64,000 bases of DNA from a virus. Numbering within the stretch: position 1 is the stretch's first letter; each line of letters starts with the position of its first letter. A program made the translations under genes and the position numbers. Where the stretch lies: positions 1 to 64,000 of the IMG/VR virus record IMGVR_UViG_3300043449_002710; one strand, 5' to 3'. Below the pieces are notes generated by a model. The model saw only the letters and a list, made by a program, of their open reading frames with translations, made no database searches and had not been told where the DNA came from. This document shows, one piece after another, positions 19,301 to 37,572 of the stretch.

Positions 19301-21260
19301 CCGCTGTTAGAACTGGATCTTTTTTCGATTCGACGTGATCTTCTTCAGTCCAATCGAAAGTCCTGACGGGTTTCACACAGCTCTTATCGTAGACCTCAAA
19401 AGAGATATGCCCGTTGAAGTTCTCGTCTTCCACCGCGCCACAAAACCCCAAGTCTCGAATCACGGTATGAATCAAACTCAGAGCTTCGTCATGAGTGGCT
19501 TGAGGCAACCCCAATGGGCCCTGAGTCAGTTTAGCAACGACATCGGGGCCGAATTTTTCTTCCACAAGCTTCTGATGCTCAGGCTTTCTCATGTCGAGAA
19601 TCCTAGACAGATCGAGATGAAATTCATGGATACGCAGCGCAAACTCTTTGGCAAAATCGAGGCTATCGGTGAAATAAGCGCCCGCATCCCCATCCCCAGA
19701 GGGGATCTGACCTTCAGGCAGGAAGTCTGAACCGTGGTAGACTGTTATCGTAGAGTTTTCTAAGGAAGCTTCCGTAGAGACTCCGTCGATTTTTTTCCAA
19801 AGCTTACGGTAATAAAACTCCGATCCATCACCCAAAGCTTCTGGGCTTTGAATTTGCTTGAGTTCTTTGTATTGGGGATCTTTTTTGAAGACGTGTGGAA
19901 AATCTAAATCGGGATCAAATTGCCTTGCGGTGAAATCATAAAAAGTGTCTTTGATCTTAACAAGAGTATGCCCGATTTCTTCTCCTTGATTTAGTTCACC
20001 GATATCCGATCTAAGGGTAACCTTCGAAGACCAAAGTTTTATTGGTAACCCCATACTCTGAGCCATGTAAACGACAGCGTTGGAAAAGTCGGAGCATTGC
20101 CAGTAAGCTTTATCTGGAAAAGCAAATCCACTCTCAGCCGCAACTTCTTTTACAGTGTTGAGGAACTCATCTATGGGGTTAGATGCTGCAGACATTCTAC
20201 CCATGCCGTGTGACGGGGCGCTGCTTTTTATTGGGGTTAACTCTTCGTATTTTTCAATCGAGTGATCAAAAAATCTTTCAAACTCAAGAACTACGTGGTT
20301 GGGTAGGCTTGAAACCCAGTACCCATTAAAGATCATTCGATAAGTGGATGCCGTGCTGGTTTTCACTTCCACTTTAAATTCGGCGTACCGAACTAAACCT
20401 TCAATCGGATCTTGCTCGGGTTCGTAATTGAGGATTTGACCGTTGGGTACGATCGCTACTTTTGATTCTCCAGAAACTTTAAACGGTGTTGGAGAAACGA
20501 TCCAATTTAAAAACTCTTTTTTAGTTTGTTCAGGCAGGTCAGCGTTTTCGATGAGCGACTTGAGGTTTTGATTTTTCTCGCTCGTCTGAAGCAGAGAGAC
20601 TTCGCTCGATAACGCCTCTTGTAGCGTCAGCTTCTTTCTGCGAGATCTTGCCTTGCTGGAGTAAATCTTTAGTGGCTTTTCCGAATACTCGCTTGAATCG
20701 TTCCAGAATCTGCTTGTTGATAGTGGCGGCCATACTTTCCCCAATATATCATTTTTTTGACTTGACGCAACAAATAAACCACGTTCATTTAAATCTAGGG
20801 ATTCTCTGAACTTCTTTCCGTCTGGGGTTTGCATATCCCCAGGCAAGATTTTCTTGCCCGAGGCTTTCTCGATCTCCTGATACATGAGGGTGGCAAGACC
20901 TTTTCTGCGGTGCGCTTCACCCACCATCAAATCCCATGCCTTCAAATTCTTAGGGTCTTTGACAAGACTTGTGATCGCTTGCTCTTGGATCTCGCTGCAT
21001 CCATTGCCGGTGGCTTTCATCTCTTGAACGAACTGATCGGCAGCTTCGCGAGATTCAAAGACGTAGCGGCCACCGTCAGGCCCATCGTAAACGTCCACGG
21101 CAAACTCTAGATCCCCTTCTTTGGGTTCGAGCATATTGGGGATCGCCCGAGCAAAGCCCACGGACTCGCCTCCAAAGTAAACTTCGGCGTTCCAGTAGTC
21201 GGTGCCGTTTTGTTTGTCTTCCCAAACTTCGATAGTATATCCAGGCGGAAGCTGCTTCAT
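16323..21260 (-). CDS. Giant polyvalent protein, 1645 aa
   Basis: A chain of enzyme-like modules read by motif. GNAT about 1-165 (RRKGLA at 118-123). Transglutaminase-like 360-460 (C389, H431, D442). ADP-ribosyltransferase-like 505-635 (VYHGSD start). ParB-like 700-770 (DGSHR). GNAT 800-912 (QRQGIA). Oligoribonuclease-like DEDDh exonuclease 930-1112 (LDCEMTG; HTDLAF; H1093/D1098). GNAT 1140-1232 (RRQGLM). A second ART-like module 1245-1392, then a tail. This is the polyvalent-protein architecture known from phages and conjugative elements, whose products may enter the host with the DNA. The start overlaps the 473-aa gene as ATGA. Two short genes are nested in linkers (20539-20733, 16660-16854). 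Confidence 0.8.
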   Translation of the reverse strand: MKQLPPGYTIEVWEDKQNGTDYWNAEVYFGGESVGFARAIPNMLEPKEGDLEFAVDVYDGPDGGRYVFESREAADQFVQEMKATGNGCSEIQEQAITSLVKDPKNLKAWDLMVGEAHRRKGLATLMYQEIEKASGKKILPGDMQTPDGKKFRESLDLNERGLFVASSQKNDILGKVWPPLSTSRFWNDSSEYSEKPLKIYSSKARSRRKKLTLQEALSSEVSLLQTSEKNQNLKSLIENADLPEQTKKEFLNWIVSPTPFKVSGESKVAIVPNGQILNYEPEQDPIEGLVRYAEFKVEVKTSTASTYRMIFNGYWVSSLPNHVVLEFERFFDHSIEKYEELTPIKSSAPSHGMGRMSAASNPIDEFLNTVKEVAAESGFAFPDKAYWQCSDFSNAVVYMAQSMGLPIKLWSSKVTLRSDIGELNQGEEIGHTLVKIKDTFYDFTARQFDPDLDFPHVFKKDPQYKELKQIQSPEALGDGSEFYYRKLWKKIDGVSTEASLENSTITVYHGSDFLPEGQIPSGDGDAGAYFTDSLDFAKEFALRIHEFHLDLSRILDMRKPEHQKLVEEKFGPDVVAKLTQGPLGLPQATHDEALSLIHTVIRDLGFCGAVEDENFNGHISFEVYDKSCVKPVRTFDWTEEDHVESKKDPVLTAVKPYQPDLEDAFSVLLMIADMDDDGNVPPEEEAIFRDKWDKAVSAGKTVSFPMEFVAENFEVFDHGRRVEEEHLKNPIIVAKVGDYYSVLDGSHRLITAYEKKRKTIDAFVVSLPWANALFNGEGYFLKDLDLKVKAAISKKKEPVLKIKTKHGRYNLFNTLADTNGIFCVWANFKNKEVGYSAFRVLDQETIQPISDKDAIEFSLDAGTYVLEDFQRQGIATAMYLHAEKASGRKLIPSDDRTEDAKKLWAQPNRPFGKYTTTATLDETSSGFLPEDLLMLDCEMTGVIPSRDKLLQIAMLKLKLKDNQYEEVGEPLVLYLRHDGKPENDFHREHLEHIFERCNESNLQPGEAKEKICDWLGELKGKVTPCGDCVHTDLAFLYENGLLDRADIGDGGPIPGTFHYETFDLNPLKAMARHRTGAKEDRKELAGYDEENIHDALVDCRNQLKELNHYMKVLLPEVVAACVFSGLEKIIEEEITEIHFDENWNGFRLVGGYGSYEGERCFRVLAIRDQDIVAGLRLSEHESHFTSENMWVLDSYRRQGLMSKMMDLVEEDRGLSVEPSEDRSMDAKRFWEKRKVESKAEPRTLKAWRFVRDILISQADPYYPGDGVLGQGTYLRPAEEALPTTMDWADPDYEEDDNPENWMIVTEYNLTFNRLAEINDENTQGLWDSEFTSKGKNPLFEGEIDGWDISDLAKKKGFDGVLVTGEDVDGGNQILIPLGKKPKAQVLKHHLYFRDSNLAKKVAYKIKGRTKKILGGIVVEVLPAKASLVDQILKESKTQAAVQDLDGCLENSESLLAVASKDACDRMRTRWKTEKSSKANLSTSANPSRQENEKAWLERFEISEKTESNYSSSDTPTLSGLTRSVANSKRFLIPEDQKLSALSQLNGDTYPEHTPIEAHQILAAKKKDWDLPEHVLPTPLDDFSLDDAKRAQVFQQEGKAMGCVTFQDFQELLSKILLDLQLTEDYRKSVAGILNQKRAQSGLDLL
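16660..16854 (-). CDS. Nested small protein, 64 aa, inside the 1645-aa gene
   Basis: The ATG at 16854 has GAGG seven bases upstream. The product (MEDRKIIESKSIDEREPLSP ... LGYANPEWFDSKCSELQKIL) is acidic and helical, like a real small protein. In the parent frame the same DNA reads as a Ser/Thr/Lys-rich stretch without structure. It is offset from the parent by two bases, as are the other four nested genes. Function unknown. Confidence 0.6.
   Translation of the reverse strand: MEDRKIIESKSIDEREPLSPRERESVARALRNLRENREQLLQLGYANPEWFDSKCSELQKILDT
20539..20733 (-). CDS. Nested small protein, 64 aa, inside the 1645-aa gene
   Basis: The ATG at 20733 follows GGGGAAAG. The product MAATINKQILERFKRVFGKA ... 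QKEADATRGVIERSLSASDE is helical and ends in a basic tail (AHRKR). The parent protein at this place is Ser/Lys-rich linker (residues about 172-240) between a GNAT and a transglutaminase-like module. The relative frame is the same as for the other nested genes. Confidence 0.6.
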   Translation of the reverse strand: MAATINKQILERFKRVFGKATKDLLQQGKISQKEADATRGVIERSLSASDEREKSKPQVAHRKR

Positions 21261-22748: not shown

Positions 22749-23507
22749 ATGATTCGTCAAACCACACCCGCCCAAATTACGGATAAAATCAAAAACTTCT
22801 GCCAGGGCGTGGCTCAGAAAGAACCTTTTTACGTCAAAGTAAAGCCCTCGGGAAAACACCAGGAATGCTTCTTCAACTGCTCTAGGTTCCTATCCACCCA
22901 CCCAGGGTACAAAATCGTTTTTGGTTGGATCATTTGGGAAGCTCCTTGGATATTAGAAATGGAGCAGCACTCTATTATTCAAACTCCAGATGGCGATTTT
23001 TTGGATGTAACGCCACAAGCAGACGGCGAGGAATCCATCTTGTTCCTACCCGATGACTCAGCAGCCCCCTCTTTCATACTCGTGGTGGATCGGCCCGATG
23101 ACATTGTCACTTGCCGTAAAGCCAACATCACATTCCCTAAGACACAGTCAAAAACCCAATGGGTCATTACTAACGTGGGGCTCTCTCAATTCAAAAATTC
23201 TCTTTCTGGGCTGAACGTTCAAGGGCCAAAATCACTCGAAGAAATTAATGCCACCTATGATTCTTTGTCGGGGCGGAAGCTGAACACCTTTTCAGATACG
23301 CTCGAAGACATCGTCTCGATGCTAGAAGGAGGCTCGGTGCTAGGAGGCCGCCACAGCATCAAAAAAACAAACCAGCCGCTTTCTTGTCTCAGCCATTTGT
23401 CGAACCCCAGCAAAGAAAAGCTGCCTAGAAATTCCCCTTGCCATTGTGGGAGCGGTGAAAAATATAAAAAATGCTGTCTCGAAAAAGATTTAAAGGGCTC
23501 AGTTTAA
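22749..23507 (+). CDS. SEC-C motif protein, 252 aa
   Basis: The C-terminus has the SEC-C zinc motif PRNSPCHCGSGEKYKKCCL, as at the end of SecA and many standalone proteins. The N-terminal domain (ECFFNCSRFLSTHPGYKIVF, then GWIIWE) resembles a domain found in other bacterial and phage proteins of unknown role. It is the only plus gene in the giant-gene region and runs convergently, overlapping the end of the 2451-aa gene by four bases. Confidence 0.75.
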   Translation: MIRQTTPAQITDKIKNFCQGVAQKEPFYVKVKPSGKHQECFFNCSRFLSTHPGYKIVFGWIIWEAPWILEMEQHSIIQTPDGDFLDVTPQADGEESILFLPDDSAAPSFILVVDRPDDIVTCRKANITFPKTQSKTQWVITNVGLSQFKNSLSGLNVQGPKSLEEINATYDSLSGRKLNTFSDTLEDIVSMLEGGSVLGGRHSIKKTNQPLSCLSHLSNPSKEKLPRNSPCHCGSGEKYKKCCLEKDLKGSV

Positions 23508-26500
23508 GAGCCCAAAATTTCTTTGATCTTCACCCACGCAAAATCCGTGTGCTCATTATTCAAAATGGGATTGAACTTCTCGGCCACCTCGAACAAGAAA
23601 GTCGTGTACTTGAACGAACCCTTTTGAAACACCGTCTTCTTTCCGGTGTCATGGTAGGCAGGGATCATTCCAATCTCCTCCTCAGTCTCCTTCAAAGCCG
23701 AAGCCTTGATATCCGTGGGGTTGCCCTTGGGATCGACGGGCACGGCACCCCCAGGGATGCCCCAGGTATACGGGTCCATGACCCAATGCGAGCGCTTTAA
23801 GAGCAAGATATCATCTTGACACCTGAACATGATGCCCGAGGCCTGAGAACCCCAGAAATCTCCCACGTGCCCTTCGTCTTCGTATTCAGAAGATGACAAG
23901 GTCTCAAATGGATCTGCAGTTGAAAACGCCTCTGCAGGTAAGGGCGTTTTGACTACGAGATATGCGGGAGTTTCTCGGTTCAATTCATCGTCAACGGTAG
24001 GACCAATCCCATCTTCTGGGTCCACGCCAAGTTGTGATTTTTTTACTTTCACTTTTAAGACTGTATTGCAACCACGCTCTTGTGCGAACCAAAGTGCGTT
24101 ATCGTACTCATTTGTAACGTAAAGATACTTACTTTGCCCCCCGTGAGCCCCTGTTGGGCTTTTTCCATTCCACCCACGTTCCAAAAGAGAAGCGGCATTC
24201 TGGTTACAAGTTCCATGGAAAAGTTCCAACACCAGATCCTCGGCAGGGGATGAATGAATGCGATCTCCATCCTTCCACTCGGATAAATAAATGACCTTGG
24301 CAGGGATTGAACCCGGTCGCAGAATAACTTCCGACTCCTCAAGTCTGAGATCAAATAAGCTTGCAAGATCTTCTGGGATAAGATTCAGATCCACTAACAC
24401 CTGTTCGGGAGAAACCGTGGCCTCAAGGATTAAGCCCTTCTGGCAGATCTCATCGCAAGCAAATTCGCTTTGCTTGAGCCAACCCAAATCGGTCGTCCAA
24501 GAACTCGGGCGCGAGTCTCGATAGGTCACGTCTTTCTTTTCAAAAGTGTCTAGACCCAAAGAGCGCAAAAGATGGCCTTCATGCCCACCTTCGGAAGCTC
24601 TGAGACCTCGGTAGATTGTCACGGGGGCTTTTGGTCGATACTGGCTTAAAAAAGCTTCCACTTCAGGGTATTTCGAATACTGATCCGCTTTTTCGTTACC
24701 CCAGTAATCCCAGGACCGAAAGAAGTTGATGATATGCCTAGAAATTCCGTTGATATCTTCTTTTTCACCGCTCGGAATATCATCCGAGTAGTCGGAGCTT
24801 TCCTCCTTAAAAGACGCCTGAACGGTGGGTGAAAGCCTTTTAATGAGCCATCCGTTTTCTAAGCTCGAATCCAGACCGTAGTATCTTTCACCTTTTTGAA
24901 GCTTAACAAGTCTCTCGGTTGTGATTTTAAAATCGAGTGGCAAAACCTTCACTCGCACAGTCTCATCGCCATTGACAATGACCTGTAATAGTCTGTGGTG
25001 CCCATCAGACACGACGAATTTGTTCTTGTAGGGATAGACCTCGATGGGGTCCTGAGTTTGCGCCAACATGCCCTTGTGTAAAGAGTCCACAGCAACTTCC
25101 ATGTTGTTTTTGTCAGGCCAGATTTTGTCTATGGCTACTTCTCTCGTTGTGGGGGATTTAGAAGACTGAACCCCAAAAGGCCGATTGGGCTGATCCCAAA
25201 GCAAACGCCCTTCTCGACTTTTCGACAGATTCGGGGCAAACTTCATCCCAGTCTCTTTTTCCACGAAAACATAAAGAGCGTTGGCGAGACCTTGTCTGCG
25301 AAACTCAGGCTCAATGTAGGTATCTGTCGAGACTAAAAACCCAGGCTTATTCCAGGCCGCCCCATAAAGGAGCTGACCTACGGGTTTATCGCCTAGAAGA
25401 ACAAAAGCGCGGCCCTCTCGGATCGAGTCATTATCCCCACGCATGGTGATTTGGTTTTCAAACTTGAACTCTTCATGAGTTTTTGGATTATCGAGAACAT
25501 TATCCTTATTTGTTGCTGTGGTTGCGTAAACCACTGACGAGAGCGTCGTATTCGGCTTGCCCGTGCTGCTGAATAATTCTTGCTTTGAACTCAGGCTGTT
25601 CGAGTCGGTGAAGGGCTTTTTCGAAATCCCGGGTGTCAGGCTCTGGGAGTTCCTTAAGCTTTTTGTCGATGATTTGGTCAGCCAGTTTTTCTTTTTCGTC
25701 CATACAGCGCCTTTATAAAAGCTCTCGATGACCAGCGATGACGAGGTCGTAATTTTCTTTGCCGTACATTTGGATATATTTTTCTGGATTAGCGAGCATG
25801 TCTCTATACTCGGCTCGCTCCTCTTCGAGGATATCTCGGTTGGCAAGCCCGTATTCATCGACAACATCTTTGTCGAGGAGTTCATCGAGGGCTTCGCTAT
25901 GAGGTTTGAGTTTTTTGTCCATACAGCGCCTTTATTATATTTATTTGGATTAAAAAAGTCAAGATTATCCAAGTCGTTGAAACTAGACAATATTATTTCG
26001 TTTTCGATCTCAGAGAAAGGAACTCCTTGGTCCATGTCCGAATCTTGATCTTCTGGTATCTTGCCTAAGATCTCGAATTGGCTGCCTGGGATTTTCCCTT
26101 CTTTTCTGACAAAGACGGTATAGCCCGCACCATCGTCTTCAATCTCGATGTCTTTTTCGGTCGGAAAGAATTCTAGGATCGTATCGCCATAGCCAGAATA
26201 GACCTTGTCTCGACCCACCCACATCAAAGTCCAGTCGGTTCCGAAATGACTTTTAATTACGTCCCTGAAAAATCGAGCACGATCTTGTTCACTCAAGTCG
26301 TCATCATGCAAAGTTTTCTGAAGCTCTTTGACTTCCTCGTCTGAAAAAAGCTCAAAAAACAAGTGATAGTAATTGAACCAATCGTGAAGGATCGAGTCGT
26401 CGCTGAAAGAGAATCGATTTTTGCCATCGTACCATTCAGCCCCTCGGGTGTGACTGAACCCATTTCTCAAAATTTCTTTTGCTGCTTTCTCAGTGGTGAC

Positions 26501-29500
26501 GTGAAAATACCTTGGCAGACTCGCTGCCAAAGTCTTGGTCGAACCCCAGTCTTTCTTGAGGACATCTCGGTCTTTGAACTGAAGGGGCAACACCTTCACG
26601 CGAAGATCCCCCGGGAGAAGCTTCTCCTCTTTCACTCTTTCCCAAATATCATCCGACACCGTGATATGGGGACGGTAGGTGGGATAGTCGTCCTTACGCA
26701 CAACTTCCAAGGCGTTGTGCATGTCCTCGATTCGAGAAGGCAAGCCCTTCAATTCAAGAACACGCACCTTCCCGTTTTGTTTGGAGTCAAACTCGACAGG
26801 CTCCCAAGTGAAGCTTGTGGGTGGGCTTAAGTCTTTACCTTTCAAGATCTCCTCGATCTTGTCTACTGTCACAGGCTCTTCGCCAAAGAACTTGACTGTG
26901 ATGTGCGCTTCATCCACGCCTTCCATCTCTACTGGGTAGTAGAGGAAAGAAGTGGTGTTGGCGTACTTGTCTCGGATCTCTTCTTTGGTTGCCTCTTCCA
27001 CTTTGGAAGCTTTTATCTTTTTGCTGACATCGACTAGCAAGACTTTTGGTGTCACCCCTAAGATGAAAGCCGCGTCCAAGCGAGTGTTTCCGCTCAAGAC
27101 CTGATAGCCCTCGGGGGTTTTTAAAACGATCGGGTAGGGAATAGGATCGTTGTTTTCAAACCCTTTCACAATCCGTTTCACGTCGCGAGGAAACGAGTAG
27201 CCAGAAACCAACTCTTCGAGTTCTTCAATCGAGTCCGTATGGCTTCTCATTCGAGTCTGGTGATCAAGATCTGGAGTCCAAGTAACGGCCTGGGATTTAT
27301 TGACGGACTTTTTAAAGTCCTCGATGTCTTCAAAGTATTCTGGAATCCATCCCTTTTTGACCTGCTTGATGACTTCCCATTCCCACTCTTGCTCGATCTG
27401 TTTTGTAGTGAGATTCACCCAGTTGGTGAATTCATAGGCCGCTGCCCCGAGCGATAAGCGGTAGACTTTAGAGTCTGGTTCATTTTCTTCTCTAGGGCCC
27501 CACTCAATGACATCTGGATTAAAGATGATGAGCTGGTCGGGCTCTCCACTATAGATAATTTCTTGATCATCTTCGATGCCATCGATCCCGAGATCTTTCC
27601 AAAACTGAGTGAATTTTTTTCTATCGTGGAAATAAGAGCGAAGGGTTGTAAACCAAAGGTAATCGCTAGGACCGTCCCCGAGCGCTTTTTGAATATCTTC
27701 TTCAGTTGGGTCATTGATGTTTCCGCCACTATTTTCAAGAAAGCTATTCCACTCGGAGATATCTTTTCTTTGCTTGGCGGCATTGAAAGCATCTAAACCT
27801 GTCTTGATTCCGGCTTTTTTCCAAATCTCCCACTTTTCAGTAGAGGTAAAACCACTGAGAAGTTTAATCTTGGTACCGGGCTTCAGCTTGGCATCCCAAC
27901 GGTATTTCTTGGCAGACCACTCGCTTACATCGATGTAAGTTCCCTTTTTGAAGAGATAGATTCCCTCGGGGTCAAAATAAATACGACCCGATTCCGAGTG
28001 AACACTTGGTATCTCTGGGTGATTGGAGACATGGAAATAGGGGTAATCCACGTCCTTGATTCCAGCGGTATTCTTCTGACTAGACGTAGCCAAATCGTCT
28101 TTTAAAACTTTTTTGAGCTTCAGGTTCTGAACGGTGGTCACATCAAAGACCACCTGATCTTCGTAGTCGGTGTTGTGGTAGGCTTTCACTGCATAAGGCA
28201 CCGTGAATTCAAAAAGATTGGGCCCGTATTTCAAAGACATTTCTTCAATATCTTTTTTGGTCTTGATATCTTTTTTCTCAAAAGCAAACGCTAGATCTCC
28301 GTGCCCAGCATACTCATGGTGAGTGAGTCCCAATCTTTCTGGTGCTTTTCCTTTGAACCCGGTTTTTAATACTTCATCTGGCTTTGCGGGGGTGAATCGA
28401 TAGAGGGTGGTTCTTCCTAAGATTTTAGGGTTTTCAAAGTAGACTAAAGACGAATCTTCATCTTCTTCCTTTTGTTGGATGTATTGCGTCTCAAAGTAGG
28501 CGAGTCTTTTTTGTCTTCTTTTTTCAGGGGAAAGCTTTTTCAGTTCTTCCAGATACTCTTCGTAATCCCAGTTAGCTTGGTGGAAATAAAGTTCGATATC
28601 TCCGTCGATCGTCTCGTCGTCTAAATTCTCGAATTCTTCTTTAGCCTCTTCCAGCCATTGCTTTTCGTTTTCTTGGCGGTCGGCCATGTAATAGAACGTT
28701 AAAAGCTCGGGGCTGTTTTTGAGTTTCTCTTCTGGTGATATTTTCTTGGCCGCCTCGATTTCCAAGTCGGCCCTGGCTTGCTTGGGCAATTCAATCTCAA
28801 GCTGAGTTTCCCCGGGCTTGAGAATCTGGATGGGTTCGATCTTGGCTCTAGGCTTTAATTCGAACTCGCGTTCGTTCTCAAAGTGGTCGTACCCTCTCCA
28901 GACAAGCTTTCTAAGAGTCTTTCCAAAATTGATGGATTGAAAGGGAACCCGAGCCTTGACGATCCAAAGAGGCAGATGCGAGTTTCTGCCTGAGTAGTTA
29001 TCGGCTTTGTGGTAGTCCCAGGTCCAATAAATGCCAAGCTTTTTAAAATCGATTGTGTCTGGGCTCTCTGCGCTGATCCCACGGTACAAGAGAACTGCAT
29101 CTCCGTCGAACTCGCCCGAGTATTCTAGCTCTTGCATCCAGCGCGGATAGTCTTCTTGGAAGGCTCGGTCCAAGACAAATTCTTTTTGGGCTTCCTTGTT
29201 TACTAAATTATCAGGCAGATCCTGCCAGTTCATCGTGTCGCTTAAGATCAAGTCTTGGACTTTTTTATCTCGCATCGCAGCCGCGAAATGCTCGTTTAAT
29301 TTGCCCAAGAAGGCCGCTTCGACGGGTATTAAGTTTGAAGTGATCTCCGCTTTAAAGTCTTCGTATGTGTCGTCATACCGGCACTTTAGAGCAACTAATT
29401 TCTCAAGAACAAATCTATTAACTTGTTGCCCGCGAGTGTCTCGGTAAATCCACTTCCCAAAAACGAACAAACGTAATGGGGTTTGGAATTTATTTAGCTT

Positions 29501-30859
29501 TATTCTAAAATATCCACGCTCGACAACACCTTCCAGCCGCGTTAAACCGGAAACTTGCTCAATATCTAATTTGGCTAGGTTCTTCGTAGATAGTGCCCCA
29601 GTTAATTCTTCGTGGCACTTGGCAATTTTTTTGCTGCTGTATTGTTCGCTACCCTTCAGATTCAGAGGTGGAAGCGGCGGTTGGAATAGACCCGTAAAGC
29701 TTTTTATAGCGAGCGAGGAGATCGTCGTAAACATCTTGTCCGAGGGCTTCGATGTAGGCTTGTGGGTTGGATACCATGCGGGCGTAACTTTCCCGGTCAT
29801 CGGTTTCCCATTGTCCGCTGAATTCTTTTTTGAATTCCTCGTCCAAGAGTCTATCGTATTTAGATTCATCTCTTGCCATACATCTCCTATGCTATCAAAG
29901 TTTATGCCGCTGTGCAACACGGGACTTGAGTCGTAACCAATTGGAACTAATTGTGTTTTATTTTCTACACGATTGGAGTCATCCGCCCAAACGGTATCCA
30001 TCGTTTTTTTGACAGTCTTCTCTAGCTCCTTCATGTCCATGGGCTTTTTATCCGCGCCCCGACCAAAGCGTTCGATCGATTCACCGACACTGTAATTAAA
30101 GCGGTGGCTGCCAGAGTAGTAGACGGATATCTCAGAGGGACGAGCCTGATTTAAATCGTGTGCTCTCGGGGATACCTTCCAGCTTGCATAATGGCCGGTG
30201 TAGGGCTTAGGACCATCGTAGACATGGACAATCCCTTCAAAGGTCTTCACACCCCATTCGGTTTTCCTTCGAGGCAAGACAAAATCGACTTTGCCATAGG
30301 GGGCGACCAATTCCTTGATCCGCTCCATGACCTTGATGGTATCCTCGTAACCCGTATCTTTGAGATCGATTCTTTTGACCACCTTGATTTTGGTCGGATC
30401 TAAAACCAAAAGCTGCTCTTCCCAAGCATGGATGACTTCGATGTCATCGAACACAGCGTCATAACCGAGATTACGCAGCGCCTTATTCCAGGCCCCTGCA
30501 CTTCGGTAGCCTTTCAAGATGAAATGATTCTTCATCAGCTCCCAAAACGAATCAATTGAGAGCGTGAATTCTTTCTCTGGGATTTCAATTTCAAGCTGCC
30601 TTAAGATTTCTTTAGCCTGATCCAAAGTCAATCGGCCCAAATCCAAGATTCGAAGCGATGGGTCAATCTCCACCTCAAACTTGTAGGGCATGACTTGCCA
30701 GAAGGGCGCAGGGTTGAAGTCACTAGGGAACAAATAGATCCCGGCAGGGTCTTGATGAAACCCCTTAGGATTGATTGTGACCTGGGGTACTTTGGAATAG
30801 TGGACCCAAATCTTATCGTTAGCGTGCTCTGAGAAGTCTGCAAAGGTGAGAGTAGCCAT
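23504..30859 (-). CDS. Giant polyvalent protein, 2451 aa
   Basis: Modules by motif: ART-like 17-165; linker 325-402; ART 585-690 (YRG, NEREFEL); ART-like 817-918; ART-like 939-1120; ParB-like 1210-1290 (SGNTRLDAA); 2H phosphoesterase 1305-1435 (HITV at 1319, HITV at 1398); ART-like 1450-1600; linker 1640-1790; GNAT 1797-1896 (RRQGLA); ParB-like 1906-1980 (DGHHRL); canonical ART 2076-2200 (YRG, SSW, EESE); ART-like 2211-2312 (FHGT); NUDIX 2335-2451 (box 2370-2398, GG ... ALKETEEEIG). This matches known polyvalent proteins but is unusually dense in ART-like domains. AGGAG abuts the first ATG, so the true start may be slightly downstream. Three short genes are nested in its linkers. Confidence 0.8.
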   Translation of the reverse strand: MATLTFADFSEHANDKIWVHYSKVPQVTINPKGFHQDPAGIYLFPSDFNPAPFWQVMPYKFEVEIDPSLRILDLGRLTLDQAKEILRQLEIEIPEKEFTLSIDSFWELMKNHFILKGYRSAGAWNKALRNLGYDAVFDDIEVIHAWEEQLLVLDPTKIKVVKRIDLKDTGYEDTIKVMERIKELVAPYGKVDFVLPRRKTEWGVKTFEGIVHVYDGPKPYTGHYASWKVSPRAHDLNQARPSEISVYYSGSHRFNYSVGESIERFGRGADKKPMDMKELEKTVKKTMDTVWADDSNRVENKTQLVPIGYDSSPVLHSGINFDSIGDVWQEMNLNTIDSWTRNSKKNSADNGKPMTGKVTPAWYPTHKPTSKPSDKMFTTISSLAIKSFTGLFQPPLPPLNLKGSEQYSSKKIAKCHEELTGALSTKNLAKLDIEQVSGLTRLEGVVERGYFRIKLNKFQTPLRLFVFGKWIYRDTRGQQVNRFVLEKLVALKCRYDDTYEDFKAEITSNLIPVEAAFLGKLNEHFAAAMRDKKVQDLILSDTMNWQDLPDNLVNKEAQKEFVLDRAFQEDYPRWMQELEYSGEFDGDAVLLYRGISAESPDTIDFKKLGIYWTWDYHKADNYSGRNSHLPLWIVKARVPFQSINFGKTLRKLVWRGYDHFENEREFELKPRAKIEPIQILKPGETQLEIELPKQARADLEIEAAKKISPEEKLKNSPELLTFYYMADRQENEKQWLEEAKEEFENLDDETIDGDIELYFHQANWDYEEYLEELKKLSPEKRRQKRLAYFETQYIQQKEEDEDSSLVYFENPKILGRTTLYRFTPAKPDEVLKTGFKGKAPERLGLTHHEYAGHGDLAFAFEKKDIKTKKDIEEMSLKYGPNLFEFTVPYAVKAYHNTDYEDQVVFDVTTVQNLKLKKVLKDDLATSSQKNTAGIKDVDYPYFHVSNHPEIPSVHSESGRIYFDPEGIYLFKKGTYIDVSEWSAKKYRWDAKLKPGTKIKLLSGFTSTEKWEIWKKAGIKTGLDAFNAAKQRKDISEWNSFLENSGGNINDPTEEDIQKALGDGPSDYLWFTTLRSYFHDRKKFTQFWKDLGIDGIEDDQEIIYSGEPDQLIIFNPDVIEWGPREENEPDSKVYRLSLGAAAYEFTNWVNLTTKQIEQEWEWEVIKQVKKGWIPEYFEDIEDFKKSVNKSQAVTWTPDLDHQTRMRSHTDSIEELEELVSGYSFPRDVKRIVKGFENNDPIPYPIVLKTPEGYQVLSGNTRLDAAFILGVTPKVLLVDVSKKIKASKVEEATKEEIRDKYANTTSFLYYPVEMEGVDEAHITVKFFGEEPVTVDKIEEILKGKDLSPPTSFTWEPVEFDSKQNGKVRVLELKGLPSRIEDMHNALEVVRKDDYPTYRPHITVSDDIWERVKEEKLLPGDLRVKVLPLQFKDRDVLKKDWGSTKTLAASLPRYFHVTTEKAAKEILRNGFSHTRGAEWYDGKNRFSFSDDSILHDWFNYYHLFFELFSDEEVKELQKTLHDDDLSEQDRARFFRDVIKSHFGTDWTLMWVGRDKVYSGYGDTILEFFPTEKDIEIEDDGAGYTVFVRKEGKIPGSQFEILGKIPEDQDSDMDQGVPFSEIENEIILSSFNDLDNLDFFNPNKYNKGAVWTKNSNLIAKPSMNSSTKMLSMNTGLPTEISSKRSEPSIETCSLIQKNISKCTAKKITTSSSLVIESFYKGAVWTKKKNWLTKSSTKSLRNSQSLTPGISKKPFTDSNSLSSKQELFSSTGKPNTTLSSVVYATTATNKDNVLDNPKTHEEFKFENQITMRGDNDSIREGRAFVLLGDKPVGQLLYGAAWNKPGFLVSTDTYIEPEFRRQGLANALYVFVEKETGMKFAPNLSKSREGRLLWDQPNRPFGVQSSKSPTTREVAIDKIWPDKNNMEVAVDSLHKGMLAQTQDPIEVYPYKNKFVVSDGHHRLLQVIVNGDETVRVKVLPLDFKITTERLVKLQKGERYYGLDSSLENGWLIKRLSPTVQASFKEESSDYSDDIPSGEKEDINGISRHIINFFRSWDYWGNEKADQYSKYPEVEAFLSQYRPKAPVTIYRGLRASEGGHEGHLLRSLGLDTFEKKDVTYRDSRPSSWTTDLGWLKQSEFACDEICQKGLILEATVSPEQVLVDLNLIPEDLASLFDLRLEESEVILRPGSIPAKVIYLSEWKDGDRIHSSPAEDLVLELFHGTCNQNAASLLERGWNGKSPTGAHGGQSKYLYVTNEYDNALWFAQERGCNTVLKVKVKKSQLGVDPEDGIGPTVDDELNRETPAYLVVKTPLPAEAFSTADPFETLSSSEYEDEGHVGDFWGSQASGIMFRCQDDILLLKRSHWVMDPYTWGIPGGAVPVDPKGNPTDIKASALKETEEEIGMIPAYHDTGKKTVFQKGSFKYTTFLFEVAEKFNPILNNEHTDFAWVKIKEILGS
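25506..25703 (-). CDS. Nested small protein, 65 aa, inside the 2451-aa gene
   Basis: The start ATG follows AAAGGCGCTGT, identical to the leader of its upstream neighbour, and the Shine-Dalgarno overlaps that gene's stop. The product is acidic and helical and ends QHGQAEYDALVSGLRNHS, resembling the ends of the nested proteins at 25713 and 29649. The parent reads Ser/Thr-rich linker here. Confidence 0.65.
   Translation of the reverse strand: MDEKEKLADQIIDKKLKELPEPDTRDFEKALHRLEQPEFKARIIQQHGQAEYDALVSGLRNHSNK
25713..25922 (-). CDS. Nested small protein, 69 aa, inside the 2451-aa gene
   Basis: ATG at 25922 with AAAGG six bases upstream. It starts MDKKLKPHSEALDELLDKDV and ends NPEKYIQMYGKENYDLVIAG, a motif shared with the nested product at 29649 (NPQAYIEALGQDVYDDLLAR). 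It forms a tandem pair with the gene at 25506. A role as cofactor or immunity protein for adjacent ART modules is speculation. Confidence 0.65.
   Translation of the reverse strand: MDKKLKPHSEALDELLDKDVVDEYGLANRDILEEERAEYRDMLANPEKYIQMYGKENYDLVIAGHRELL
29649..29879 (-). CDS. Nested small protein, 76 aa, inside the 2451-aa gene
   Basis: The ATG at 29879 is preceded by AGGAG. The product MARDESKYDRLLDEEFKKEF ... NPQAYIEALGQDVYDDLLAR is a compact acidic helical protein and belongs to the same small family as those at 25713 and 25506. The parent protein reads a Thr/Ser/Pro/Lys-rich linker here (about residues 328-402). Confidence 0.65.
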   Translation of the reverse strand: MARDESKYDRLLDEEFKKEFSGQWETDDRESYARMVSNPQAYIEALGQDVYDDLLARYKKLYGSIPTAASTSESEG

Positions 30860-30935
30860 CTCCTAAAAAATAACTCCAGGTGTTGGAATAAAATATGAAT
30901 ATAGCGGGGGCTTAACTACTGGCTTGGAGAAATTT

Positions 30936-31214
30936 ATGGAACGCACACTAGCTAACGTATTAGGTCAAAGAGTTGAACGTGAACGTCCTACTCGAATCAC
31001 AAAAGAAGAATTAAAATGCACAGTTGGATTTAATTCTTATTTAACCGTTTTTTCGATCCAATTAGTGCATCGATTTCCTGTCGTTACTGATTTAACTGGA
31101 ATTCCTTACGATGAAGTGCAAAAAATAGCTGATTTTTCTGCAGCAAGCTCTTTGATTGCTTTAGAAACTTGGGGGCGAGTGACTGAAGAGCAATACAAGC
31201 AGCAAGCAGCGTAA
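30936..31214 (+). CDS. Hypothetical protein, 92 aa
   Basis: The ATG at 30936 has GGAG upstream; a TTG 12 bases earlier overlaps that site and is less likely. The product MERTLANVLGQRVERERPTR ... looks helical with a DLTGIPYDEVQKIADFSAAS segment. It is divergent from the 2451-aa gene and is followed at once by a strong terminator, so it is probably a single-gene transcript. Function unknown. Confidence 0.65.
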   Translation: MERTLANVLGQRVERERPTRITKEELKCTVGFNSYLTVFSIQLVHRFPVVTDLTGIPYDEVQKIADFSAASSLIALETWGRVTEEQYKQQAA

Positions 31215-31218
31215 AATT

Positions 31219-31253
31219 TAGCGGAGATGGGAAACCGTCTCCGCTATTTTTTT
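31219..31253 (+). terminator. Strong intrinsic terminator
   Basis: TAGCGGAGATGG pairs with CCGTCTCCGCTA (one T-G wobble) around a GAAA tetraloop, followed by seven T. It ends the gene at 30936-31214 and overlaps the 3' end of the opposing gene. Confidence 0.9.
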
Positions 31254-32020
31254 AATAGGGTCAGTATTAAAAGTTTTAACGCACACCAAAAACCAACTCT
31301 GCCTACCTGAATCAAATCCTCGCCGTGCGCGTAATCGAGCCAGTAGAGGCAAAAAAGGTTGACGTTTTGGTCAGGATAGCGGGGAAGTTTCCTTAGGTCC
31401 GTCTCAAACCCCATCTCTTTACTCTTAGAAGTCAGAACAAAACGTTTTTTATCAAATGTGTTTTTCCCAGAGAAATACTTTTCCACGTAGCGTTTGAAGA
31501 CTAGCTCCGCGATCTCCACATATTTTTTGGGGGGCTTAAGCTGATTGGCTTTGTCGCTCGGCCAAACCTGCGTGTAAAGATCCGTGAAGGTCCCAATGAT
31601 CGATGGCGTGGAGGAGATGTTGGTGTAATAATAAGAACCAAACTCTTTCCACTGGTAGTAACTCAGGTAGCTGTAAGGGATGCTTAAAAGATCCACCCCT
31701 TTGTTTTTGGTGATCAATACCAAACCAGCATGGATCACGACATCCGGTATGATTTGAAGAATGACGTTGTAAAAGAAACCGATGGCTTCATTTGTATTGT
31801 CATAGATCAAACAGATGTTTGCAGATTGAAAAAACTCGATCAGCTCAGTGCAAGAGATCTCGGGATCTAAAATACCGTAGGAGAGATTCCTTTTAGAAGA
31901 TTCGTTGATGTATTGTATTTCTTCTTTCAGCCAATTCAGTTCGGCTGATTTCATCCAGAGCCCCGGGCGGAATAAATAGTGTAGGGTGTAACCCTTGTAG
32001 CTTTTAGTTATCCGTTTCAC
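31244..32020 (-). CDS. Unrecognised 258-aa protein paired with a histidine kinase
   Basis: No clear family. The middle part (GFFYNVILQIIPDVVIHAGL, then VLITKNKGVDLLSIPYSYLS) has the strand-loop-helix look of GNAT-fold or autoinducer-synthase-like acyltransferases, but the acetyl-CoA loop is not clear. A hydrophobic C-terminal segment (VGFWCALKLLILTLLKK) may touch the membrane. It overlaps the kinase gene by 17 bases, so the two are translated together. The neighbouring ThiF-like gene is divergent. A signal-synthesis role is inference from this arrangement. Confidence 0.5.
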   Translation of the reverse strand: MKRITKSYKGYTLHYLFRPGLWMKSAELNWLKEEIQYINESSKRNLSYGILDPEISCTELIEFFQSANICLIYDNTNEAIGFFYNVILQIIPDVVIHAGLVLITKNKGVDLLSIPYSYLSYYQWKEFGSYYYTNISSTPSIIGTFTDLYTQVWPSDKANQLKPPKKYVEIAELVFKRYVEKYFSGKNTFDKKRFVLTSKSKEMGFETDLRKLPRYPDQNVNLFCLYWLDYAHGEDLIQVGRVGFWCALKLLILTLLKK

Positions 32021-33188
32021 TCACCTGAAATAACAAGGGGCCGGTTGTGATTTTAATGATCGCACCGCCTTCAGGGTGATTTGCAAACTTCATTTTTTGA
32101 CCTCTTGCTTCCACAAGATTCTGAATCAGAAATAACCCAATTGAATTTCCCTGAGCCTTGGTGGTTTGAATCCATTTCCCAGAATTCAATTTTTGAATCT
32201 GCTCTTTTTGAAACCCATTTCCATTGTCTCGAATAAACAAACAACTGTCTTTAATACCGATCTCAATTCTGCTTGCCTTTATTTCCACGGCATTGATGAT
32301 CAGATTGTATAGAATTTTTGTGATCAAGTTTTTGTTTCCGACAACCACAGAATCCTTTTCAAGTACGATTTCCGCGCCTTGGAGCTGAGATCTCAATATG
32401 ATTTTTAAGCTCTCTAGAATCTCGGAGAGCTTAAAATTTTCGGTCGTATTGTATGGCTTACTCAGACGGTTGATCTCTTCGATATAGGCCAACAAAAACT
32501 TGGAATCTCGATATAAAATCTCTATCAATTTTTTATTGTTGTCGTTATTTTCTAATCTCTTTAACAAGAAAATGGCATTGATCGGTGAGGTTAAAAGATT
32601 TTTAAAGTCGTGAAGAATGAGACTAGAGTGACAACCGATGTCCAAGAATTTTTCTGCGAGCGCGTCTTTTTGCTTTCGGGTGATGCTAACAAAGTTGTAC
32701 CCGACAAAGGATAACAAGGTGGTGATAAGCACCCCGGCTGTGGCATCAAAGTGAAATTTACTAATAGCAGCAAGGTTAGTTGTTTCATAGACCGAAGCTG
32801 GGCTTAGAAAAATCATCGTAATCATTCCAGCCGCTGAGACGCCCATCGAAGGGTAAAAAACTTTTTTGGGGGCCATGAAAAAGATCCCAATCGGGATCAC
32901 AGCTTCCATGTAGGCCAAGTAGTAGCAAGGAAAATAATATTGACCGTGAATCGAATAAGCTGCAATCGTCAGTAAAAACCCCGGCAGATGCCATTGACGA
33001 TATTTTTTAAAATGGATTTGAACAATGATGACCAGACAAATGAACGCTGTTAAAACTCTCCCCAAAACATAAGAAAATCTCAAATAGTCTGGTAACTGGG
33101 GAGTATCCAAGAAAATCATGACCAGTGGTATGACAAGACCGAAATAAGTAACCGCTTTTAATGTTTTAGGTTCATAATCTAACATCAT
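32004..33188 (-). CDS. Membrane sensor histidine kinase, 394 aa
   Basis: Several hydrophobic helices (about residues 15-165) precede a DHp-like helix with ILHDFKNLLTSPINA (candidate phospho-His H193). The HATPase domain has N-box YNLIINA (about 294-300), G1 DNGNG (321-325) and G2 GNSIGLFLI (347-355). Such kinases autophosphorylate in response to a signal sensed by the membrane part. No receiver domain or response-regulator gene is in the window. Phage-encoded histidine kinases are uncommon. It starts at tandem ATG codons next to an AT-rich element shared with the divergent gene. Confidence 0.85.
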   Translation of the reverse strand: MMLDYEPKTLKAVTYFGLVIPLVMIFLDTPQLPDYLRFSYVLGRVLTAFICLVIIVQIHFKKYRQWHLPGFLLTIAAYSIHGQYYFPCYYLAYMEAVIPIGIFFMAPKKVFYPSMGVSAAGMITMIFLSPASVYETTNLAAISKFHFDATAGVLITTLLSFVGYNFVSITRKQKDALAEKFLDIGCHSSLILHDFKNLLTSPINAIFLLKRLENNDNNKKLIEILYRDSKFLLAYIEEINRLSKPYNTTENFKLSEILESLKIILRSQLQGAEIVLEKDSVVVGNKNLITKILYNLIINAVEIKASRIEIGIKDSCLFIRDNGNGFQKEQIQKLNSGKWIQTTKAQGNSIGLFLIQNLVEARGQKMKFANHPEGGAIIKITTGPLLFQVSETDN

Positions 33189-33202
33189 TTATATTTATAA
33201 AA
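33187..33202 (+). promoter_or_regulatory. AT-rich 16-base element between divergent genes
   Basis: ATTTATATTTATAAAA matches the recurrent element in 15 of 16 positions. It lies in the 51-base gap between the kinase gene and the ThiF-like gene, 37 bases before the latter's ATG at 33240, so it could control the plus gene or both. Confidence 0.5.
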
Positions 33203-33239
33203 TACCTAACTTTATTACTCAAGAAAATTAAGGGAATTT

Positions 33240-33977
33240 ATGTTTTCTAGAAATTGGTTGTTTATTTCCGAGGCGACCCAAAAAACTCTTTCAGACCAGA
33301 TGGTTCTGATCGTGGGGACTGGGCTTGGCAGTAAAATAGCGGAGTTAGCTGTAAGAACAGGCTTTAAAAAATTCATTATTGCGGATGGGGATCAAGTAGA
33401 ATTGTCGAATTTAAACCGACAGAATTTCAATCTAGAATCCGTAGGGCAAAACAAAGCGGCGGCCACCAAAGAGGCCCTGCTGAAAATCAACCCAGACGCT
33501 CAGATTCTCGATTTGCCTGCTTTCTTCGACCAAGAGGATCTAGAGCGTTGGGTTCCGAGAGCCAACTTCGTTATCAACACGATTGACTTCGAAAACGACA
33601 GCTTCCGGCACTGCAGCCAGATTTGTCGTAAGTACGAAAAGATTGAACTCTTCCCTACCAATTTAGGCTTTGGGGGGTCTTTGGTCGCCTTCAATTCGAA
33701 GAGCCCTACTTTCAGTGAGTTCTTTAAGACCGAGGATTCCGTTGTCTTGAAAAAGAAGATTCTAGAGTATTTGATCCTCAACAAAAAGGCCCCGACCTAC
33801 ATGAAGGAGGCTTACTCTCGATACCTTCTTCAGAAAGTGGGTAAACCCGACCCACAACTTGGGATCGGCGCAGCCATGACCTCGGCTTTGACGGTAACCA
33901 CGATGGTCCGAGTTGTGTCTGGGGAAACCATTAAAACATTTCCCCAGGATTTTTATTACGTGGATGGCTCCTATTAG
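33240..33977 (+). CDS. ThiF/E1-like adenylyltransferase, 245 aa
   Basis: The Rossmann-type E1 core is clear: VLIVGTGLGS (23-31), the Asp-x-Asp strand IADGDQVELSNLNRQNF (47-63, with Asn57, Arg60 and Gln61 as in ThiF/MoeB), Lys72 in GQNKAAA, and Asp116 in NTIDFEND. Family members adenylate the C-terminus of ubiquitin-like proteins or small acids. No obvious catalytic cysteine loop and no ubiquitin-like partner gene is seen. It is divergent from a histidine kinase/258-aa pair. Its stop overlaps the virion gene at 33974 by four bases. Confidence 0.85.
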   Translation: MFSRNWLFISEATQKTLSDQMVLIVGTGLGSKIAELAVRTGFKKFIIADGDQVELSNLNRQNFNLESVGQNKAAATKEALLKINPDAQILDLPAFFDQEDLERWVPRANFVINTIDFENDSFRHCSQICRKYEKIELFPTNLGFGGSLVAFNSKSPTFSEFFKTEDSVVLKKKILEYLILNKKAPTYMKEAYSRYLLQKVGKPDPQLGIGAAMTSALTVTTMVRVVSGETIKTFPQDFYYVDGSY

Positions 33978-36171: not shown

Positions 36172-37572
36172 ATGAAGCGCTCCAAGAAACTGTACGTTGC
36201 CAGAAGAAGCTCCTCCGTATTAAGTCGATTCATGCTCTCCCCGCGCAAACGCTTCGTGCGGTCTTCTTTGTACGAGGGCTTTCCTACCTTAGCTGAAGTG
36301 ATCTTGGCCCGTAATGTTGCCAATACAACAGAGATTGAAAAGTTTCTGAATGACTTCCACGTGGAAGACTTGCCCAACTTGAATGAGTGGCTCGATTCCA
36401 CCATGCGCAAATACCTGATCAATAAATATGACAGAACCCGAGGTTATACCCCTAAGGCTTCTGACCCAGATTGGATGCAAGGCAAGACGGATCTTGAAAC
36501 GGTCATCTTGGACAACGCGCTCACGGATAAGCTTCAGCATTTAGTAGATTTTTTAAAGAACAAAATGACCACTGAACCTAACTTCAACCTCAAGTCTTTC
36601 CAGGCCGAAGAGGCCATGAAGCAATCTCAAGAATGGCTCGATCGACTCAAAAAGAAAAAGAGCGAAGAAGAGCAAGAGGGTGTGGATTACAAAGTCCTGA
36701 TGGACTTAGGCAACGGCTGGAAGTGGGTGGATCTGATTTCTCAGAACGCCTTAACCCGCGAAGGTCAGAAAATGGGCCATTGCGTAGGCGGTTATTGGGA
36801 TCGGGTCAAAACCGGAAGAGAAAAGATCTTCTCACTCAGGGATTCTGATAACCAACCTCATGCCACTATCGAATACGTCCCAGGCCAAGCTTCCATCGAT
36901 CAGATCAAAGGCAAACAGAACAAAGGCGTGATCCAAGAGTACATGCCTTATGTTTTGGCGTTCTTGAAGTCCCCGCCTGTCAAAGTCAAAAAGATCAACG
37001 ATTACGAATTGAACTTAAACGGTCTTTTGAAAACCAATGATGGATACATTTCAGTCAGTTTGATTCCAGAAGGAACCATCTTAGATCAGAACTTGGATCT
37101 CAAGAAATTTGATGACATTAAGCTTCCCAAGAATCTCACCATCAAAGGCGATCTCATTGTTCCATCGGGTCAGGAATCCTTGCCTGAAAACTTAACTGTC
37201 ACGGGCACTTTGAACTTGGCAAAAACTCTGATTCGAGAACTCCCCACGGGCATGAAAGTGGGCTCTTTGAATCTCTTTGGCTTGAGCAGGCTGACTTCCT
37301 TGCCCGCAGACATTCAGATCACCAAGGATCTCAACGCAGAGTTCTCAGGTTTGGAGTCGATCCCGCCTCTGAAATTAAAAGGCGATCTCGTTTTAAGTGA
37401 CACAGATATTCAGTCTCTCCCAGAAGGTTTGAGCGTGGGTGGCGAACTCGATATCATGAACACCGCGATCAAGACTCTGCCTAAGAAGTTGAAAGTAGGA
37501 ACCGCCATCTTCGTGGATGACGTGGATGCTTTTGAAGGGGTTTCACCAGCTCTGAAAGCGCTTTTACACTAA
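36172..37572 (+). CDS. PcfJ-like protein with leucine-rich repeats, 466 aa
   Basis: The centre (about 195-265) has the PcfJ-type pattern LTREGQKMGHCVGGYWDRV ... IFSLRDSDNQPHATIEY, found in conjugative-element and phage proteins. From about residue 300 there are degenerate leucine-rich repeats built on LPxxLxVxGxLxLxxTxIxxLP. The N-terminus is very basic (MKRSKKLYVARRSS). The role is unknown; PcfJ-type domains occur in mobile-element proteins together with ART domains. It is followed after nine bases by the first of two paralogues. Confidence 0.7.
   Translation: MKRSKKLYVARRSSSVLSRFMLSPRKRFVRSSLYEGFPTLAEVILARNVANTTEIEKFLNDFHVEDLPNLNEWLDSTMRKYLINKYDRTRGYTPKASDPDWMQGKTDLETVILDNALTDKLQHLVDFLKNKMTTEPNFNLKSFQAEEAMKQSQEWLDRLKKKKSEEEQEGVDYKVLMDLGNGWKWVDLISQNALTREGQKMGHCVGGYWDRVKTGREKIFSLRDSDNQPHATIEYVPGQASIDQIKGKQNKGVIQEYMPYVLAFLKSPPVKVKKINDYELNLNGLLKTNDGYISVSLIPEGTILDQNLDLKKFDDIKLPKNLTIKGDLIVPSGQESLPENLTVTGTLNLAKTLIRELPTGMKVGSLNLFGLSRLTSLPADIQITKDLNAEFSGLESIPPLKLKGDLVLSDTDIQSLPEGLSVGGELDIMNTAIKTLPKKLKVGTAIFVDDVDAFEGVSPALKALLH

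Follow-up and report, generated by a model that had tools for sequence, protein, structure and literature searches.

We found that the first 64 kb (the window) of the 223,260-bp jumbo phage record IMGVR_UViG_3300043449_002710 in IMG/VR carries a three-gene module that may make and sense an acylated small molecule, a reading that we put forward tentatively, at a little under an even chance. The module encodes a 258-amino-acid (aa) protein with a GTG start, here called ACT (31244–32020, minus strand), a 394-aa membrane sensor histidine kinase (32004–33188, minus strand) and a 245-aa ThiF-like adenylate-forming enzyme (33240–33977, plus strand). The 3′ end of the kinase gene overlaps the 5′ end of the ACT gene by 17 bp (32004–32020, minus strand), which makes translational coupling likely, and the kinase and ThiF genes diverge from an intergenic region with 51 bp between the two starts (33189–33239). 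A preliminary description of this DNA had reported this layout, and the open reading frames proved to be exactly so. We take the trio to be real genes because ThiF has bacterial relatives at 44% identity and the relatives of ACT (E-value 1e-50) also adjoin a ThiF gene. One part of the proposal, a biosynthetic partnership between ACT and ThiF, we regard as likely.

ThiF matched the Pfam family PF00899 over its full length (116 bits), in agreement with its earlier naming as a ThiF/E1-like enzyme, and its only full-length match in the PDB was the ‘THIF-type’ protein of entries 9egb, 9egc and 9egd (E-value 1e-30), for which a literature search found no publication. All of the ATP-site residues that are invariant across 36 family members, including D115 (alignment numbering), are kept in the phage enzyme. 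It has only two cysteines (CSQIC) and is without the CxxC zinc pair, and no sulfur-carrier gene of the ThiS/MoaD type was found among the neighbours scanned. In a tree of 49 proteins, including MoeB, ThiF and TcdA references (Cap2, TyzB and TrzS were not placed), phage ThiF fell inside the 9egc-type clade together with bacterial loci (support 100/98), separate from the MoeB, ThiF and TcdA references and from OxzB-like ThiF-oxidase fusions. Its nearest relatives in the tree were from Flammeovirga, Vibrio/Shewanella and one spirochaete. At the Flammeovirga locus (L002:6808–7746), a SIR2-like gene adjoins the closest bacterial relative of phage ThiF, and there is no acyltransferase nearby.

The neighbours of this ThiF clade in bacteria argue for its association with acyltransferases and regulators. 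A genome scan using an alignment of phage ThiF and the 9egb–9egd protein yielded 80 bacterial loci, at which an acyltransferase was present within 6 kb of ThiF in 60 cases, a LuxR-type regulator in 69 and both in 59; several of the loci without the full set are contig ends. In Bacteroidota, two genes nearly always adjoin that of ThiF, one encoding a ~215-aa protein and the other a ~252-aa regulator that bears a LuxR-type helix-turn-helix. The ~215-aa protein matched Pfam FeeM (E-value 7e-4) and NCBIfam exosort_acyl (E-value 2e-4), both below the cut-offs, and a profile alignment with exosort_acyl proteins gave an E-value of 2.6e-9 over 200 columns. Its AlphaFold model (predicted local distance difference test score, pLDDT, of 91) was most similar in the PDB to the LasI autoinducer synthase (E-value 2e-9), with FeeM at 2e-7. 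On these profile and model comparisons, the ~215-aa neighbour is predicted to be an N-acyl amino acid synthase/LasI-like acyltransferase. Association with an acyltransferase was also observed in Rhizobium leguminosarum, where a ThiF with 28% identity to phage ThiF adjoins an exosort_acyl protein (E-value 2e-39), and in a Spirochaetia metagenome-assembled genome (L009), where a ThiF 36% identical to that of the phage is fused to a C-terminal acyltransferase domain with weak GNAT matches. Next to the L009 fusion come genes for a membrane histidine kinase of 411 aa and then a receiver of 141 aa, with gene ends that abut or overlap, so that its parts list of ThiF, acyltransferase, membrane kinase and lone receiver is that of the phage, where ACT is the probable acyltransferase. 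Thus, the genes beside ThiF in several lineages, together with one gene fusion, lend strong support to the partnership of ThiF-like enzymes with acyltransferases raised in the preliminary description, and the neighbourhood search found that the gene set recurs in bacteria.

The triad that joins ThiF to a LasI/FeeM-like acyltransferase and a LuxR-type regulator is widespread in Bacteroidota, with gut, oral and marine genera among its carriers (L010–L081), and looks like an undescribed LuxI/LuxR-like signalling system, of which we found no description in the literature searched. Like these triads, the phage has a ThiF of this clade (support 100/98, with PDB 9egb–9egd a member) beside a probable acyltransferase and a putative regulator, but a membrane histidine kinase takes the place of the LuxR-type protein, and ACT does not detectably belong to the same acyltransferase family as the triad enzyme.

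Two other functions for ThiF can be weighed against these data. The first is that ThiF is an MccB-like enzyme that tailors a small phage peptide, in the manner of ribosomally synthesised and post-translationally modified peptides (RiPPs), with ACT modifying the same peptide. ThiF-like enzymes are known to modify peptides (PMC12250964), and phage ThiF matched MccB with an E-value of 1e-8. However, the MccB match spans residues 14–124 only, whereas over its full length ThiF matches the 9egc family, and the clade has N-acyl-amino-acid-synthase-like neighbours rather than RiPP proteins (no systematic search for a short precursor open reading frame was made). We consider peptide tailoring very unlikely. 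The second function, for which we also found little support, is the defence or counter-defence device suggested in the preliminary description, which would be of the Cap2 type, as in cyclic-oligonucleotide-based antiphage signalling systems (CBASS), or of the bacterial ubiquitin-like type. Although E1-E2 models in PADLOC matched ThiF in part (best E-value 4e-19, over ~100 aa), these matches cover only the generic E1 ATP-binding core, and the tree, in which Cap2 was not placed, groups ThiF with the acyltransferase-linked family. In addition, scans of neighbouring proteins against Pfam, PHROGs, NCBIfam and PADLOC found no E2, JAB, ubiquitin-like (Ubl) or CD-NTase protein among them, which bears out the earlier statement that the locus has no ubiquitin-like partner. 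We consider a defence device very unlikely as well.

The faint acyltransferase-like pattern previously noted in ACT is probably genuine. Relatives of ACT in Vibrio and Shewanella (35–38% identity) lie directly beside ThiF, as does a distant branch on Rhizobiaceae plasmids (E-values of 3e-16 to 1e-13 by phmmer with phage ACT). The family is rare, with one occurrence in 369 Gammaproteobacteria sampled, three strong matches in 147 Shewanellaceae and none in 297 Bacteroidota; a match in Flammeovirga (E-value 7e-4) was judged on inspection to be due to chance. On plasmids of Shinella, Ensifer and Rhizobium (L120, L125 and L137), ACT and ThiF are the first two genes of a five-gene operon whose remaining genes encode, in order, a seven-transmembrane (7TM) protein, a GNAT protein and a nitroreductase-family protein. 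This operon has the look of an uncharacterised cluster for biosynthesis of the acyl-amino-acid type. The GNAT motif A ‘HLGLVMVDPDARGQGLSWVL’ is present in alphaproteobacterial-type ACT members, and the aligned stretch of phage ACT reads ‘HAGLVLITKNKGVDLLS’. With an AlphaFold model of ACT (pLDDT 41), all 50 of the 50 best PDB matches were GNAT-fold acetyltransferases (Foldseek; best E-value 0.011, prob 0.96), and the early elements of the model come in the same order (beta, beta, alpha, alpha, beta, beta, beta) as in the confident model of the Bacteroidota acyltransferase. A suggestive profile match was also obtained with hhalign between ACT and the FeeM-like family (E-value 0.004; score of 27.7 compared to a maximum of 22.8 in 100 column shuffles). 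The fold evidence therefore points to acyltransferases, and we conclude that ACT is probably a GNAT-fold N-acyltransferase.

An N-acyltransferase and a ThiF homolog are encoded together in OxzAB of Pseudoalteromonas and in TyzABC and TrzAS of Mycobacterium (PMC10404671, PMC12856293). In the TyzABC and TrzAS pathways, the N-acyltransferase acylates an amino acid, the ThiF homolog cyclises the product with ATP and desaturation of the ring falls to an oxidase (PMC10404671, PMC12856293); the role of ThiF-cyclised acyl amino acids in physiology is not settled, and signalling has been proposed (PMC12856293). ACT, if an acyltransferase, resembles TyzA, once a hypothetical protein, in being recognisable as such mainly by structure. 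In contrast to these acyl-oxazolone pathways, the phage locus includes a sensor kinase, and the phage record is without the nitroreductase-type oxidase that Oxz, Tyz and Trz possess: no PF00881 match was found in the 223-kb record, although 14 of 14 control genomes were positive. Phage ThiF is also a stand-alone protein that falls outside the OxzB-like clade of our tree, in which TyzB and TrzS were not included. Because the oxidase is absent and ThiF lies outside the OxzB-like clade, we do not class the phage module as an acyl-oxazolone pathway. Since the first two activities of the pathway are present (that of ACT presumptively) and the oxidase is absent, the likeliest outcome is a saturated cyclic or activated product.

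As its earlier designation as a multi-helix membrane histidine kinase implied, the third protein of the module contains five hydrophobic segments by hydropathy (residues ~9–163), an H box (LHDFKN) from residue 192 and N, G1 and G2 boxes at residues 295, 321 and 347. It matched HATPase_c at 43 bits (E-value 6e-11; Pfam cut-off of 26.4) and HisKA at 19 bits (E-value 1e-3), the latter below the Pfam cut-off. The absence of a response regulator noted in the preliminary description holds for the trio but not for the phage, which encodes one lone receiver-domain protein (113 aa, 62 bits; record positions 157543–157881, minus strand; L093:13543–13881). This receiver gene is convergent with an adjacent gene for a 751-aa protein (record positions 155288–157540) and lies ~124 kb from the trio. 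That the kinase is the only HATPase_c protein of the record and this protein its only receiver suggests that they form a pair. The L009 operon, with its ThiF, acyltransferase, membrane kinase and single-domain receiver, is alike if ACT is the acyltransferase that it probably is, and it differs in that its ThiF and acyltransferase are fused and its receiver is adjacent to the other genes. A stretch common to the phage and L009 receivers was dropped as an argument because the phage receiver resembles receivers in general. Given that the ThiF clade is linked either to LuxR-type regulators or to a kinase and receiver, sensing of the product is the candidate role of the phage kinase that has the most support.

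The substrate, the product chemistry, the pairing of kinase and receiver and the biological purpose that we infer are as follows. ACT would move a fatty-acyl group from acyl-coenzyme A or acyl-acyl carrier protein onto the amino group of an amino acid or a comparable amine, and ThiF would adenylate the free carboxylate of the ACT product with ATP, leading to cyclisation or coupling (an oxazolone-like, lactam or lactone product). The kinase, probably co-translated with ACT in one operon and divergent from ThiF, would take this acylated product as its ligand and detect it in the membrane, and its phosphate could pass to the sole receiver of the phage or to a host regulator. Infected cells might thereby report and read the density or state of infection. 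A bolder version, which is possible but rather doubtful, is that ACT, ThiF, the receptor kinase and the receiver make up a complete phage-owned acyl-signal circuit for communication or listening, and that bacteria widely use ThiF-acyltransferase modules as a class of signalling system not yet described.

Phage communication has so far involved peptide systems. If the proposal is true, it would be widened to acylated small molecules, a chemistry also in use among bacteria. The Bacteroidota triad, with its likeness to a signalling system, is open to direct test. The proposal also offers a testable role for N-acyl amino acid/ThiF chemistry, the purpose of which is left open in PMC12856293. A phage with signal genes and a kinase has a precedent in phiCDHM1 of Clostridioides difficile, whose agr3 locus (agrD, agrB and agrC) joins signal-production genes to a histidine kinase with no adjacent response regulator (PMC3901668). 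The agr genes of phiCDHM1 make a peptide, whereas an acylated small molecule is proposed here, and the giant phage is unrelated to phiCDHM1 and has its own lone receiver.

Several observations weigh against a module that makes and senses an acylated product. For ACT, matches of its members to Pfam Acetyltransf_1 were below threshold (E-values of 0.06–0.09 in 3 of 11 members) and the AlphaFold model is poor. We do not call ACT a member of the FeeM family because the FeeM-like match vanished in sub-alignments (E-values of 0.17–0.18) and no profile match to exosort_acyl itself was found with hhalign (E-value 0.14). In four proteobacterial genomes (L132–L135), ACT lies beside a ~400-aa 7TM protein, a candidate receptor or exporter for the ACT product, and ThiF is not alongside; ACT and ThiF, adjacent in several lineages but not in these four genomes, are therefore a recurrent rather than an obligate pair. 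For the sensing step, the ACT-ThiF pairs of Vibrio and Shewanella have no adjacent regulator, the L009-type operon was found in a single metagenome-assembled genome with no second case among 296 genomes of the same phylum, and the phage kinase is not detectably homologous in its sensor region to the L009 kinase nor detectably related to the alphaproteobacterial 7TM neighbour of ACT. Signal synthesis and sensing, one of the functions suggested in the preliminary description, is the best reading of the module, with L009 as its one bacterial counterpart of like composition, and in this reading the product is a putative ligand of the kinase.

A rival explanation of the module, in keeping with the pairs lacking a regulator, is that ACT and ThiF make an acylated and perhaps cyclised metabolite that is not a signal, such as a membrane-active or antimicrobial lipid or an agent of host-envelope change or phage exclusion, and that the kinase is independent of them or merely a co-regulated sensor of the envelope or of infection. 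This explanation, which we consider unlikely though by no means negligible, is also consistent with the Rhizobiaceae operon, in which the pair sits among largely enzymatic genes (GNAT and nitroreductase), and with the existence of ThiF-cyclised acyl amino acids that have no established signalling role (PMC12856293). On the other hand, the phage kinase gene overlaps that of ACT and has a promoter region in common with ThiF, and the ThiF clade lies beside a LuxR-type regulator at 69 of 80 loci and beside a kinase and receiver in L009, both of which favour product sensing.

The trio, a combination that looked new for a phage in the preliminary description, is carried by no other virus among those searched; for the broader pairing of signal genes with a kinase, phiCDHM1 is a precedent. 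In tblastn searches of 50,697 phage records, neither relatives of ACT nor close members of the phage ThiF clade turned up, and none came from pattern scans of IMG/VR, in which near-exact short matches are needed and divergent relatives can escape. Alignment-based viral scans returned nothing with ACT and only six relatives, generic and partial, with ThiF. Single-sequence scans of a viral collection (ACT, kinase and ThiF) and a bacterial collection (ACT) were all empty, but they are weak evidence of absence because near-identical 8-mers are required.

With all relatives bacterial and the genes present in no other searched phage, it could be argued that the module is bacterial cargo that the phage picked up recently and has no use for, or that it is an artefact of assembly. 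We judge this highly improbable, since no reading frame is broken, the catalytic residues are retained and the module is embedded in phage sequence of uniform GC content (45.6–47.2% across the record). It is flanked by phage genes, one for a polyvalent protein of 2,451 aa and the other for a head-tail connector; the connector matches phrog_17327 (E-value 6e-14), with distant relatives in PaBG, Lu11, Motura and phage G, and as a probe for sister phages it found none. Also against cargo, the gap between the kinase and ThiF genes contains TATATTTATA, which is repeated near other phage genes. This element occurs 12 times in 223 kb compared to ~1 expected, mostly in intergenic DNA and often no more than ~50 bp from a gene start; the sites include window positions 33190, 59934, 61393, 61399 and 62069 and record positions 143296, 170209 and 217817. 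It is likely a phage-specific promoter or operator that is also present at the module, and no enrichment of the T4-type late promoter TATAAATA was found.

At the other end of the module, a terminator-like hairpin with a T tract (31219–31246, plus strand) abuts the ACT stop codon and ends the upstream plus-strand gene (30924–31214). The 2,451-aa polyvalent protein (23504–30859) is one of two such giant proteins in the window, the other being a 1,645-aa protein (16323–21260) that bears GNAT domains and an RNase_T exonuclease domain. Positions 36172–37572 of the window encode a PcfJ-like protein of 466 aa with a tail of leucine-rich-type repeats.

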